A stretch of DNA of 34,864 nt from contig NZ_LR734839.1 of NCBI RefSeq assembly GCF_900010725.2, positions 76,919-111,782 on the forward strand, given 5' to 3'. Both the position numbers and the translations under genes were made by a program. The DNA is from Planktothrix serta PCC 8927 (lineage in GTDB: Bacteria; Cyanobacteriota; Cyanobacteriia; Cyanobacteriales; Microcoleaceae). This document shows positions 1-34,647 of this stretch, piece by piece; position 1 is the stretch's first letter, and each line of letters begins with the position of its first letter. The notes under the pieces are model-generated. The model was given only the letters and a program-made list of their open reading frames with translations, made no database searches and had not been told where the DNA came from.

Positions 1-1
1 T

Positions 2-478
2 ACTGTGGTAAACTCAACTCGATGGGCACTGTTTAATCGATTAAAAGAAACAGGTTTACCTGTTTCAACTGGTTCCGGTGGTTTAACTAAATTTAACCGA
101 ATCCGATTAAACCTACCTAAAACCCATTGGTTAGATGCAGCTTGTGTTGGAAAACTTGAATCAATAAAGGTGTTAACCAATAAACCTTTATTGATTCAGG
201 CAACAGGACGTGGTACTCGTCAAATGTGTGGTACAGACAAATACGGATTTCCAACGAGACATCGCTCACGAATACAGATTCATCAAGGCTTTCAGACGGG
301 CGATATTATTAAAGCTGTTGTTACTAAAGGCAAGAAAATAGGCTTTTATTTAGGTCGAGTTCTTTGTCGCGCATCTGGCAGTTTTGATATTGTTACTCAA
401 AATGGAAGAGTAGCAGGAATTAGTCATAAATATTGTCAATCAATTCATAAAAAGGATGGTTATTCTTATGGATTTTAA
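2..478 (+). CDS. iscB: IscB-family RNA-guided nuclease, C-terminal part (cut by window edge)
   Basis: The open frame enters from the left edge, so only the last ~158 residues are seen. It carries the RuvC-III motif of IscB/Cas9-type nucleases (THWLDAACVG, pattern H-x-x-D-A) preceded by a GGLTKFNRIRLNLPK segment. After it comes the conserved TGRGTRQMC..DKYGFP stretch and a small beta-rich C-terminal domain, which in IscB contacts the target-adjacent motif. RuvC-I/II, bridge helix and HNH would lie upstream. IscB is a nuclease encoded in IS200/IS605-type elements and guided by an omega-RNA encoded just upstream of iscB, so that RNA is outside the window. The GTG at 5 is internal, not a start. 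The reading frame is intact to its TAA; whether the full protein is functional cannot be judged here. Family call is firm. Confidence 0.9.
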   Translation, partial: TVVNSTRWALFNRLKETGLPVSTGSGGLTKFNRIRLNLPKTHWLDAACVGKLESIKVLTNKPLLIQATGRGTRQMCGTDKYGFPTRHRSRIQIHQGFQTGDIIKAVVTKGKKIGFYLGRVLCRASGSFDIVTQNGRVAGISHKYCQSIHKKDGYSYGF

Positions 479-565
479 AAGAACTCAGGCGGTTAAAACC
501 GCGCTTAGTCGGTTTTCCTCCTCGCTCTAAAGAGACGAGGCTTCCAACCTTCCCATGTTTTTCTT
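479..565 (+). mobile_element. Right end of the IscB element, ending before GTGA
   Basis: After the iscB stop comes an inverted repeat GCGGTT-AA-AACCGC, then a hairpin at 520-540 (CCTCG CTCT AA AGAG A CGAGG). Next is GACGAGGCTTCCAACC and a T-rich tail TTTTTCTT that stops before GTGA at 566-569. The terminus resembles the ends of the two ORF-less elements in this window (GACGGGGTTTCTACC...ATTTTTCTG before ATGA). From that three-way match I infer that the element ends at 565. The hairpin may also act as the iscB terminator. Confidence 0.7.
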
Positions 566-5884: not shown

Positions 5885-7513
5885 TCATTCAGTGGTTAGG
5901 GTTCCTTGATGAACAGTCTTAACCCACTTCAGTCGTTTGGGACGAATTGAAATCCGAGCCGTTGTACTTCCCACCACCAATAACCAGTGAAGCATATACA
6001 CTGTACCGCGTAGTGTATCAATCCAGAGGGTTAACTGGTTTGGAAATCGGAATCCTGTGGATTTCCCCGATGCAGTTGTTGACTCAGATGGGGACAATTC
6101 CCGGCTTTGATTGGGTTGAGTGTTAACCTTTACCCTCATCGGTTGAGTTTGGCGAATACGCCGTAATCCTAGAAACATTCCCAATAAAGAAAGCGTCAGG
6201 GTAAAACAGGTTAAGGGGGTTGTTAAGGGTAAACGGCGTTGAATTAACGATAGTACCAAATCAGGAACCGCCGCCGTCGGTAAGATATATTGGGTAATCC
6301 AAAAACTCAGTAAATCGATGGTTTTTGGGGTTCCCATGCGATTACGAACAATCAACTGCCAATAGTCTAAATAGCGTTGATAGCCCCCTTCCGCCCAACG
6401 ATTGCGTTGATGCCAAAGGGCTTTAAACTGGGTGACTCCCTCCTCATTTACGGGGGGAAAAGACAAACATTCAATGTCCCATTGATCTAAATGCAGCCGA
6501 ATTGTTAAATCTAAATCATCGGTAATCGTTTCTTCATTCCAGCCCCCACAACTTAAGAGTGCTTCTCGTCGGACAAACTGGCCGTTTCCCCGCAGTTCGC
6601 CAACGCCACCAATGGAAATCCGTTGTTCTTGAAAATAGGCATCTAAAGCCATCTCGGCGGCTTGAGAACGAGTCCAAAAATTTTCTGAGGCATTGGCGAT
6701 CGCTTTTCGGACTTGGACAGCCCCCACCTGTTCGACATTGAATCGGGGAACGACATGGCGTAGCATATCCGGTGCGATTTGAGCATCGGCATCAAACACC
6801 CCTAGAATTTCCCCTTGAGTTAAGGGTAAGACTTGATTTAAGGCCCCTGATTTTCCCCCACTCATCAGAGCCGAGCGCCGTAATATTTTCAGTTGGGGAT
6901 AATCTTGGGTGAGTTTTTCCAGAACAATAGCGGTTTGATCACTACTATTATCGTCAACAACCCAGAGTTCATAACAATGACTGGGATAATCCAAACTACA
7001 GAGATTTTTAACCAGACGACCAATTACCGCTTCTTCATTTTTAGCCGCTACTAATAACGAAACATAGGGCCAATTTTGTTGGGGATGTTCCGCTAAAATT
7101 TCCCCTGGGGATCGGGTTTTAGCCCAAAAAATTCTTAGGGCATGAATTGACAATAAACCTGTTAAACCCAGGATAAATCCCATCCCCCAAGAAACAAAAT
7201 GTAGGGTAATAATTCCGCCCCAAATTAAGGTTAGGGAAACAGCTGCTTTCTGTCTTCGACCTTGATACCAATTGGGGAAAACCTCGAAAGTTGGCTCCTT
7301 TTGGCCGGAACTTGTGTCAGATTGTTGCGAGGTTTTAGCAACCGAGGGATAAACCATTGATGATCCAGTCCCACCGACCCCACTGTCCGGCTGATTTCGT
7401 TGAGATTTCCAAGTTGGAGATTGATCAGGATAGTTTTGATCACTGGTTAGCGCTTTTATGTCACTGTTGCATAAGCGGTCAGCATCCTTTTCGGGCCAAG
7501 ACTGTTTTGGCAT
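5885..7513 (-). CDS. Family 2 glycosyltransferase, membrane-bound, cellulose-synthase-like
   Basis: 542 aa. Residues 1-~85 are hydrophilic and low in complexity. Two membrane segments follow (VSLTLIWGGIITLHFVSWG, GFILGLTGLLSIHAL), then a GT-A catalytic domain: VAAKNEEAVIGRLV, ELWVVDDNSSD near 184, DADAQ near 240, TDDLDL near 330, and QRNRW near 370. This is the D, D, D, Q-x-x-R-W set of processive beta-glycosyltransferases. Two or three membrane spans and a basic tail follow. It probably makes or extrudes a polysaccharide or glycolipid head group. First gene of a likely operon with sucC and sucD. A HEARO-like element lies 30 bp upstream, in the same sense, and forms most of its leader. Confidence 0.88.
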   Translation of the reverse strand: MPKQSWPEKDADRLCNSDIKALTSDQNYPDQSPTWKSQRNQPDSGVGGTGSSMVYPSVAKTSQQSDTSSGQKEPTFEVFPNWYQGRRQKAAVSLTLIWGGIITLHFVSWGMGFILGLTGLLSIHALRIFWAKTRSPGEILAEHPQQNWPYVSLLVAAKNEEAVIGRLVKNLCSLDYPSHCYELWVVDDNSSDQTAIVLEKLTQDYPQLKILRRSALMSGGKSGALNQVLPLTQGEILGVFDADAQIAPDMLRHVVPRFNVEQVGAVQVRKAIANASENFWTRSQAAEMALDAYFQEQRISIGGVGELRGNGQFVRREALLSCGGWNEETITDDLDLTIRLHLDQWDIECLSFPPVNEEGVTQFKALWHQRNRWAEGGYQRYLDYWQLIVRNRMGTPKTIDLLSFWITQYILPTAAVPDLVLSLIQRRLPLTTPLTCFTLTLSLLGMFLGLRRIRQTQPMRVKVNTQPNQSRELSPSESTTASGKSTGFRFPNQLTLWIDTLRGTVYMLHWLLVVGSTTARISIRPKRLKWVKTVHQGTLTTE

Positions 7514-7543: not shown

Positions 7544-7866
7544 CAGAAAAAATAGGTAGAAACCCCGTCCACCTAGTTAGGCTTTATATTTCCCTTTTCA
7601 GGGAGGAGGGTATGATGACCCTCCTAACTCCTATTTCTAGGGTAAGGTTAGCTTCAATAAGGTTTTAAGAGCTTGTTAGGCTAGGAGCATCAGTCTTACC
7701 CCTCGTAAAACTGTTTAACTACTAACGACAGAGCCAGGGACTAGCTACGCATCCAACAGGGTGTCTTGACTCAAAAAACATAGTCAGTTAAGACTTAGGC
7801 GGGTACGAACTAACTAAAGTTAGAGGCATGAAGCCCCGTCACTTCAGTGCCGGGTGTTGACCCAAT
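7544..7866 (-). mobile_element. ORF-less HEARO/omega-RNA-like element, copy B
   Basis: Read on the minus strand it begins near TCAACACCCGGCACT (left edge approximate) and ends with GGACGGGGTTTCTACC and TATTTTTTCTG, directly before ATGA (7543-7540). It shares several blocks in the same order with copy A at 32997-33240: GTGACGGGGCT, TTACCCTAGAAATAGG, GTTAGGAG, AAAGCC and the terminus. A hairpin (GGAGGG/CCCTCC, 8-nt loop) and a GAAA-loop stem (TCCCT/AGGGA) occupy the same places as in A, with different paired bases. It carries ~110 nt more than A in the left half and has no reading frame. HEARO RNAs are the omega-RNAs of IscB and insert before ATGA/GTGA; the assignment is inferred from that and from the IscB end at 479-565. 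Confidence 0.65.
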
Positions 7867-32633: not shown

Positions 32634-32996
32634 GCATTGTAACCTCCGTAATCAAAAACTCGCAATTTTAATAAATCGAAATTTTTATAGCAACACAAGG
32701 TTTAGGGTATTGAGACTCTCTGCTCTGAATAGACAAGGATTCTTTAACAGAAGATCACCACCGATGATTAATTGATCGGGGGGCTTAAGTCCCTTATTGA
32801 TTGGAGTTGAGCCGTTCTTATTCTCGCCCAAATGGAACAGAATCTAACGAACAGGTACACAAGGGCGCATAATCAGTTACGATCACTCATTGAGTACACA
32901 ACTGGATTTCTAGCAATCTTAACTTGCTAACCCCAGATTATAGTTCCCCCGCGAGTGAAATGTGTTGGGGTATTGAATTCAGAATATCACGATTGT
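32634..32996. other. Divergent promoter region of asd and tig (element-free part)
   Basis: 363 bp between asd and element A. Contains a small dyad TAGCAA-N7-TTGCTA near 32914, but no box I can assign. The 3' end (…CACGATTG) was probably next to the tig ATG before element A inserted. Confidence 0.45.
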
Positions 32997-33240
32997 CAGC
33001 ACCCCGCACTCTCTGTGACGGGGCTACGCGCGGAGCGCAGGCTACGCCAACGTGCCTCACTCCTAGCGTGATAGTTGACCAGCCTAGCTAACTTTACCCT
33101 AGAAATAGGTGTTAGGAGACAACCAGATCTCCACAGAGGGGCAACCATACCCCTCTACCCCGAAAGGGGAAATGTAAAGCCGTCCTAGAAGGCTTGCCCT
33201 GAGCTTGTCGAATGGGACGGGGTTTCTACCCATTTTTCTG
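32997..33240 (+). mobile_element. ORF-less HEARO/omega-RNA-like element, copy A, abutting the tig start codon
   Basis: Starts near TCAGCACCCCGCACT (left edge approximate) with the hairpin CCCCG CAC..GTG A CGGGG. It continues with TTACCCTAGAAATAGG and GTTAGGAG. Next are stems AGAGGGG/CCCCTCT (33135-33156) and CCCC-GAAA-GGGG (33158-33169), then AAAGCC. A terminal stem CCGTCC (33180-33185)/GGACGG (33215-33220) leads to GGTTTCTACC and CATTTTTCTG, ending at 33240. The next four bases are ATGA, the start of tig. Same blocks and order as copy B (7544-7866, inverted) and same terminus as the IscB element. It has no reading frame. Two loop regions carry other repeats: CCCTGAGCTTGTCGAA, and GGCTACGC given twice. 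Confidence 0.7.
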
Positions 33241-34647
33241 ATGAAAGTAACCCAGGAAAAACTTCCCGCAAGTCAAATTGGATTGGACATTGAAATCACA
33301 CCGGAAATGTCTAAAAACGCTTATGAGCAAGTTGTTCGGCGGATGAGCCGTTCGGTGAATATTCCTGGGTTCCGCAAAGGCAAAGTGCCTCGTCACATTC
33401 TCATTCAGCGCTTAGGCCAGGAACGCATTAAAGCTGCTGCGTTGGATGATTTAATGAACCAGTATTTACCCAAAGCTGTCGAACAAGAGAACATTCAAGC
33501 GATTGGTAGCTTTGAACCTCGAGGTGATATCGATCAACTCATCCAGCAATTTGAACCGGGACAAACGCTGACGATTCAAGTGACTGTAGATGTGGAACCC
33601 GAAGTTAAACTCGGTCAATACAAAGGCTTAACCGTTCAAGCAGAAGAAGCCAAGTATGACCCCGAACAGGTGGAACAGGTATTACAACGGGAACAAGAAA
33701 AAAGAGCAACCTTAATCCCCGTTGAAGGCAGACCAGCCCAAGAAGGGGATGTGGCGTTTGTCGATTTTCAGGGGTACTTTACCCAAGAGCCCGAAGAAGC
33801 GGAACCCAAAGAAATTCCGGGTGCAAAAGGCGATAATTTCCAAGTGGAATTAGAGGAAGGACGGTTTATTCCGGGTTTTATCGAGGGTCTTTTTGGTATG
33901 AACCCTGGAGAAACCACAACCTTAAATCTGAAGTTTCCCGATGAATATGGGGATGAAGATGTTGCCGGGAAAGATGCCACCTTTACAATTACTCTGAATG
34001 AACTTAAAGAAAAAGAACTGCCAGAGTTAGATGATGAGTTTGCCGAGGAGGTTAGCGATTTTTCGACTTTAGCAGAACTGCGGGAGTCTTTGGAAAAGCG
34101 GTTTCAAGGGGAAAAAGACGATCAAACTAAAGCCAATAAACGTAAAGCTTTAGCAGATGCGTTAGTGGAAACGATTGAAGTCGATTTACCTGAAACCCTG
34201 ATTCGCCAAGAAGTTGACCGACTGATTACCCAACAGGTGATGCAGTTGAGCAATATGGGACTGGATGTTAAACGCTTATTCACGGGTGAAATGATCCCTC
34301 GTCTGCGGGAACAAGCCCGTCCAGAGGCGATTGACACGTTGAAGCGTTCCCTAGCCTTGAAAGAAGTAGCGAAACAGGAATCTTTAACCGTTACTGAGGA
34401 AGAAATTCAAGCGGAAGAAACTAAAGTTCTTAAAGAACTCGAAGGTCAAGACGTTGACCCCCAACGCTTAAGAGCTTTTGTCACAGAAGATTTGCTTCAG
34501 GACAAAACCTACTCCTGGCTGGAAGAAAACGCCACCATTGAGTTAGTTCCCGAAGGAACTTTAACACCCCTAGAAGACGAAGACGAAGACGAAGACGAAG
34601 ACGAAGACGAAGACGAACTCGAACTCGAAAGTACCGAGGAAGAATAG
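33241..34647 (+). CDS. tig: Trigger factor (ribosome-associated chaperone / PPIase)
   Basis: 468 aa. N-terminal ribosome-binding domain (MKVTQEKLPASQIGLDIEIT; signature GFRKGKVPR), central FKBP-type prolyl isomerase domain (EGDVAFVDFQGYF ... FIPGFIEGLFGMNPGE ... FPDEYGDEDVAGKDATF), and a long helical C-terminal chaperone domain. The tail is acidic: seven Glu-Asp pairs encoded by a GAAGAC hexanucleotide repeat, then ELELESTEEE. ATG at 33241 is chosen since it gives the family N-terminus. An in-frame TTG at 33205 would translate the mobile element and is rejected. No Shine-Dalgarno is visible, because the last 244 nt upstream are element A. In cyanobacteria clpP and clpX often follow; they would be beyond the window. 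Confidence 0.96.
   Translation: MKVTQEKLPASQIGLDIEITPEMSKNAYEQVVRRMSRSVNIPGFRKGKVPRHILIQRLGQERIKAAALDDLMNQYLPKAVEQENIQAIGSFEPRGDIDQLIQQFEPGQTLTIQVTVDVEPEVKLGQYKGLTVQAEEAKYDPEQVEQVLQREQEKRATLIPVEGRPAQEGDVAFVDFQGYFTQEPEEAEPKEIPGAKGDNFQVELEEGRFIPGFIEGLFGMNPGETTTLNLKFPDEYGDEDVAGKDATFTITLNELKEKELPELDDEFAEEVSDFSTLAELRESLEKRFQGEKDDQTKANKRKALADALVETIEVDLPETLIRQEVDRLITQQVMQLSNMGLDVKRLFTGEMIPRLREQARPEAIDTLKRSLALKEVAKQESLTVTEEEIQAEETKVLKELEGQDVDPQRLRAFVTEDLLQDKTYSWLEENATIELVPEGTLTPLEDEDEDEDEDEDEDELELESTEEE
34573..34614 (+). repeat. Hexanucleotide microsatellite (GAAGAC)x7 in the tig coding region
   Basis: Seven perfect units that encode (Glu-Asp)7, followed by GAACTC twice. Unit gain or loss keeps the frame. 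Confidence 0.95.

Follow-up and report, generated by a model that had tools for sequence, protein, structure and literature searches.

The trigger factor gene tig of Planktothrix serta PCC 8927 is preceded by a mobile element that stops at the base before its start codon, and this element is very probably a non-autonomous, internally deleted copy of the HEARO/IscB (OMEGA) type. It consists of omega-RNA sequence followed by a hairpin right end and contains no ORF, with the native tig leader on its left and the tig ATGA on its right. The window, by which we mean the whole 34,864-nucleotide stretch of DNA that was analysed, corresponds to G000:C19:76919-111782 of the 6.27-Mb draft genome (G000), and within it the element occupies 32995-33240, flanked by tig and by a divergent gene (Table 1). 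It begins with GTCAGCACCCC and ends with CTACCCATTTTTCTG; its last base is 33240, and from the next base on the sequence reads ATGAAAGTAACC, whose ATGA opens tig. The 5' border (GTCAGCACC...) was set by the GTCAG start of most related copies together with empty sites. The original prediction, which ran from 32997 to 33240, had placed the right end correctly and the left border two bases too far in.

Table 1. Features of the window, with the evidence on which each assignment is based
Feature	Position	Strand	Basis
IscB-type element remnant	1-565	+	Weak HEARO match at G000:C19:76834-76941 (42 bits), just before and into the window
Second copy in the window, same right-end type (L048)	7544..7861	-	HEARO RNA at 7642-7861, RF02033 104.5 bits, over gathering
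Native tig leader left of the element (AATTCAGAATATCACGATT)	32976..32994	+	Also precedes the start codon in empty congeners
5' part of HEARO/omega-RNA	32995..33085	+	Aligns to the full-length same-site copies of G002 and G003
Junction of the ~141-nt internal deletion, give or take a base or so	33085..33086	+	Gap columns against G002/G003; no HEARO match
3' end of omega-RNA (AGCTAACTTTAC)	33086..33097	+	Found where the HEARO match of other copies stops
Right-end domain, a series of hairpins ending CTACCCATTTTTCTG	33098..33240	+	Right-end type common to 25 other copies
ATGA, target-adjacent motif and tig start codon	33241..33244	+	Empty sites at tig; exact NTGA junctions at 14 of 15 other sites
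tig, gene of the 468-aa trigger factor, with its stop	33241..34647	+	Pfam Trigger_N, FKBP_C, Trigger_C

Comparison of the tig locus in related genomes revealed both empty and filled alleles. Six congeners (G001, G004, G006, G007, G008, and G009) have an empty site that reads CACGATTTTTT|ATGAAAG, the leader running straight into the gene (AATATCACGATTTTTT|ATGAAAG). The empty site of a seventh congener, G005, has one T fewer than these six, and that of G011, which belongs to another genus of the same family, reads CACGATT|ATGAAAG. Two further congeners, G002 and G003, carry full-length elements of 393 and 365 nt, respectively, at the same tig site, with HEARO matches of 124.8 and 124.7 bits, above gathering. 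A DNA search with the 244 nt originally delimited gave 31 matches in the strain's own genome at an E value of 0.001 or below, including the query itself, the others being partial; at an E value of 1e-5, no plasmid copies of the tig element were matched. It had been predicted that the region is a mobile omega-RNA-like element, that it inserted directly before ATGA, and that the start codon itself served as the target, and all three proposals are borne out by these alleles. Far from all relatives sharing the same 244 nt with no copies elsewhere, relatives have empty sites and the genome has further copies. None of the empty alleles has the exact wording proposed, in which ...CACGATTG is followed directly by ATGAAAG. 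The tig junction is also not exact. All three carriers (G000, G002, and G003) read CACGATT before the element, with two T's as against six in the six empty congeners, a difference of four T's. The T-run before tig varies (2, 5, or 6), and the missing T's may have been either absent in the ancestor or lost at insertion.

The HEARO covariance model (RF02033), which had been suggested as a check, recognizes the same-site copies of G002 and G003 and gives no match to the window copy even at E = 10. The reason is that about 141 nt of the omega-RNA core are absent from the window copy, as measured by 141 gap columns against those two copies. Because RF02033 does not match it, we file the window copy as a deleted derivative and not as a HEARO RNA; judged by alignment, it is a core-deleted relic and not a complete omega-RNA. 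The family nevertheless resembles HEARO RNA, the omega-RNA of IscB, in its GTCAG start, its insertion before NTGA, its dispersed copies, the scores of the same-site copies, and, for some copies, a putative IscB-type ORF directly downstream; the window copy differs from it in having lost the core, in having no ORF, and in going undetected by the model.

Across the ten genomes of the genus, RF02033 matches over the cut-off numbered 31 in G000, 21 in G006, 16 in G002, 8 in G001, 7 in G003, 3 in G004, 2 in G009, and 1 in G005, with none in G007 and G008. There were 115 HEARO matches of any score, and 101 of them were parsed (41 of 41 in G000, 20 of 32 in G006, 16 of 17 in G002, 2 of 3 in G009, and all in the other genomes). 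A right end could be read in 70 copies, 60 by pattern and 10 set by hand, representing 62 distinct sites. Among the 31 other parsed copies, five (L021, L041, L043, L050, and L134) had an apparent right end that would give a span of more than 520 nt and was set aside, and 26 had no readable right end, comprising IscB-type frames that run past the fetched end, degenerate copies, and contig ends. The 62 sites are followed by ATGA in 57 cases, GTGA in 4, and TTGA in 1. All of them end at NTGA because the reading patterns required it, and independent support for this motif is provided by the empty alleles. The two flanks of each of 16 sites (15 start sites and L039) were fused and used as queries against the ten genomes; 15 gave full-length empty matches and L044 gave none. 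Alignment of 20 empty alleles of these 15 sites showed that 14 of the 15 junctions are exact, meaning that at least one allele has neither an insertion nor a deletion there, the sole inexact junction being that of L042, which is off by 9 nt. Empty sites free of target duplication, the pattern of the IS200/IS605 family, were thus observed, with a difference of four T's from six empty congeners at tig and of 9 nt at L042. At folD, the empty allele begins with GTG and the filled allele with ATG.

The window contains two further traces of this family. The second copy adjoins the upstream side of a gene that starts at 7513, its ATGA lying about 30 nt before that start, and plasmids of cyanobacterial genera gave eight partial matches to it, 72 to 78% identical. 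The remnant at the left edge of the window includes, by reading, the C-terminal part of an IscB-type frame and has the right end CCCATGTTTTTCTT|GTGA. In the strain's own genome there are nine matches to RRXRR (IscB), all partial and several beside N gaps, and no intact IscB driver was seen among them; there are also nine matches to Y1_Tnp (TnpA), some of them partial. IscB-type frames follow some other copies; in one set they extend to the limit of the sequence fetched and may be incomplete. Non-autonomous derivatives of IS200/IS605 elements of the MITE type are short, ORF-less, and multi-copy and have hairpin right ends. The tig element and its relatives share these properties, and insertion is exact at 14 of the 15 sites compared, but many of the relatives differ from such derivatives in keeping a complete omega-RNA. 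IscB/TnpA machinery with NTGA as its recognition motif would have mobilized the element in trans. Transcription from the tig promoter upstream of the element would then produce a structured 5' leader of about 246 nt, and ribosomes would initiate, as on the empty allele, at an ATG that the insertion left unchanged and that follows a U-rich stretch lacking a Shine-Dalgarno sequence. An intrinsic terminator at the right end was considered and rejected, as the terminator scan lists no intrinsic-terminator-like site on the + strand inside the element.

Across the genus, a frame of at least 60 codons opens at 39 of the 57 distinct ATGA sites and at one of the four GTGA sites. As background we took, from 20 stretches of G000 totalling 400 kb, the ATGA sites located outside predicted coding sequence or coinciding with a predicted start. 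Starts account for 114 of 522 such sites (22%) under strict counting and for 205 of 613 (33%) under lenient counting, which includes in-frame ATGA up to 150 nt from the longest start. The excess is therefore 2 to 3 times background (p ~7e-14 strict, ~7e-8 lenient). Starts were predicted by a longest-frame rule with no gene caller, and errors are possible in the sites and in the background alike. An earlier count, based on the 60 pattern-read copies, had found a frame of at least 50 codons at 36 of 55 ATGA and GTGA sites. Eight of the 62 sites are common to two genomes, and seven of these eight are starts. Ten hosts are backed by Pfam: trigger factor, DNA polymerase III beta (dnaN), EF-P (efp), a FolD-type protein, acyl carrier protein (acpP), phosphofructokinase (pfkA), peptide deformylase (def), an isocitrate/isopropylmalate dehydrogenase (leuB by reading), an NADH dehydrogenase subunit (ndhA by reading), and a type II/IV secretion ATPase (pilT by reading). 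The frame that begins at the sole TTGA site encodes, judged by eye, a P-II (glnB) protein.

Such an excess could mean that the machinery prefers transcribed leaders or starts over and above NTGA, so that host promoters make the omega-RNA. We consider this unlikely. It would fit the start-codon excess itself and also the non-start sites of the earlier count. For 16 of those 19 sites, a sense frame of 60 codons or more begins no farther than 150 nt away, some cases being doubtful, set against a background of 47 to 55% of ATGA sites that are a start or lie within 150 nt of one. But in G000 alone 11 of 21 ATGA sites are at starts (p 0.002 strict but 0.057 lenient), and copies that are probably young lie mostly elsewhere. 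These are found in G018 (L271-L290), whose HEARO elements, some ORF-less and some IscB-bearing, are near-identical, hence the presumption of youth. All 14 G018 copies with a readable right end, from 20 fetched of at least 32, stand before GTGA; at four of the 14 a frame of 50 codons or more begins, by eye at most two resemble true starts, and some copies lie inside open frames. As a test of targeting this set is not clean, since it uses GTGA, a rare start (a predicted start at 7.6% of such sites in the G000 sample), and it does not exclude a start preference in the ATGA sub-families. Selective retention would account for the start-codon excess more simply than targeting. On the simplest account, elements insert wherever NTGA and chance allow, and the copies that persist are those that leave promoter and coding sequence undamaged. 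Many copies would thus be found at or just before starts because NTGA is frequent there and because insertions at such places spare the promoter and the coding region and are retained.

The original prediction also held that the insertion had cost tig its native Shine-Dalgarno sequence. This idea was rejected, because the empty leader has none: the anti-Shine-Dalgarno score is +0.2 kcal/mol in the six empty congeners, compared with -2.2 in the window and +1.3 in G002 and G003. The median for predicted starts in the 400-kb G000 sample, -2.2 kcal/mol, equals the score of the window tig leader. One right-end type ends in GGAGGAAGAAAG or GGGGGAAGAACG before ATGA, which constitutes a strong Shine-Dalgarno sequence, and at seven start sites (L153, L192, L197, L201, L205, L031, and L202) it scores -9.4 to -10.9 kcal/mol, against +0.7 to -5.1 for the native flanks. 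The G018 right end, AGGAGTTTTAC|GTGA, scores -6.9. Some elements therefore bring a ribosome-binding site with them, and others, the tig element included, do not. A more speculative extension, to which we would give some but limited credence, is that the elements are parasites that dock on start codons, with the start codon as TAM, with the host promoter expressing an omega-RNA guided by the gene's own leader, and with some right ends restarting translation (GGAGG-AAGAAAG|ATGA; AGGAG-TTTTAC|GTGA in G018), so that essential genes tolerate them.

The tig element is predicted to be highly structured. The segment 32995-33270, comprising the element and 30 nt of tig, folds with -105.7 kcal/mol, compared with -82.65 (sd 4.6) for shuffled sequences (z -5.0). 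The arms of the terminal hairpin lie at 33180-33185 and 33215-33220. Among copies, CCTAAC/GTTAGG alternates with CCGTCC/GGACGG, the form present in the window, such that three pairs are altered on both sides in 6 of 26 right ends and broken in 2 to 3. The loop of this hairpin harbors GCTTGCCCTGAGCTTGTCGAA at 33192-33212, as it does in L177 (where it reads GCCTG...), L178, and L186, as if a small repeat had been inserted into the element. Folding estimates on leaders of assumed length put the opening energy of the start region at 11.1 kcal/mol for G000, at 7.3 and 7.5 for G002 and G003, and at 7.15 for G028, as against 4.9 to 5.9 for five empty alleles, those of four congeners among them, which suggests that the tig start may be less accessible in carriers. 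The strong fold, the paired changes, and the less open start region predicted for carriers could all be read as signs of a domesticated leader, in which the element has become a cis-regulator that affects the translation of tig or the stability of its RNA, with the core deletion in the window genome as part of the adaptation. We regard this as quite improbable, since other copies show the paired change too and gene conversion or a transposon-end function could account for it, and the undeleted form has been kept in two congeners.

It is still harder to believe that the window copy remains a working guide RNA. In an intact IscB omega-RNA, the leader bases to the left of the element would be the guide, and the 5' part and the 3' end of the omega-RNA are indeed retained, but with its core deleted and no HEARO match at E = 10 the copy probably cannot guide. 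That the region is merely an ordinary conserved leader or an unrelated dispersed repeat, a view to which the presumed resemblance of GGCTACGC... and CCTGAGCTTGTCGAA in the element to common dispersed palindromes might lend color, can be dismissed, given the empty sites in congeners and the HEARO elements that G002 and G003 carry there.

The history of the tig site is also more complex than that of a single insertion passed on by descent. Empty G006 groups with the carrier G000 (95/97 on tig and 96/98 on tig plus left flank; the left flank alone gives no resolution), and because an empty genome thus falls inside the carrier group, such a simple history was not accepted. Either insertion followed by loss or recombination in G006, or filling of the site more than once within the genus, is needed. 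In G028, which belongs to yet another genus, a different HEARO element (L080; its match spans 37547-37770 of C23 and begins 192 nt ahead of tig) ends exactly at the tig ATGA, and its relatives G024, G031, G034, and G019 have the empty leader ...AAAGCCG|ATGAAAG. The tig start codon has therefore been hit at least twice independently. The gene itself was matched in all 59 genomes searched, including that of the strain. Near the C-terminus of the encoded trigger factor, a run of GACGAA repeats at about 34574-34617 specifies an acidic tail (EDEDED...).

The rule reported for HEARO elements is insertion before ATGA or GTGA. Among the titles and abstract openings listed in our literature search, none dealt with the placement of HEARO/IscB elements at start codons, and we do not claim that the subject is absent from print. 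In work on OMEGA systems, IsrB proteins, two of them cyanobacterial, have the TAM NTGA or NTG (PMC9581776). The junction motif described here fits this TAM of IsrB/IscB systems, a motif that overlaps ATG, GTG, and TTG starts; unlike those systems, the tig copy encodes no protein partner.

An IsrB-type TAM of NTGA contains a start codon, and the overlap becomes visible here as repeated 5' leaders in front of unbroken genes. For many genes, core genes included, the 5' leader is now probably made up of an OMEGA-type element with the start codon in its motif, with trigger factor, the DNA clamp, EF-P, and acyl carrier protein among those that have been given element leaders. The number of host genes makes the surprise larger than the tig site alone would, and the pairs of filled and empty alleles in related species make the cost of insertion and the supply of guides by host promoters directly testable.
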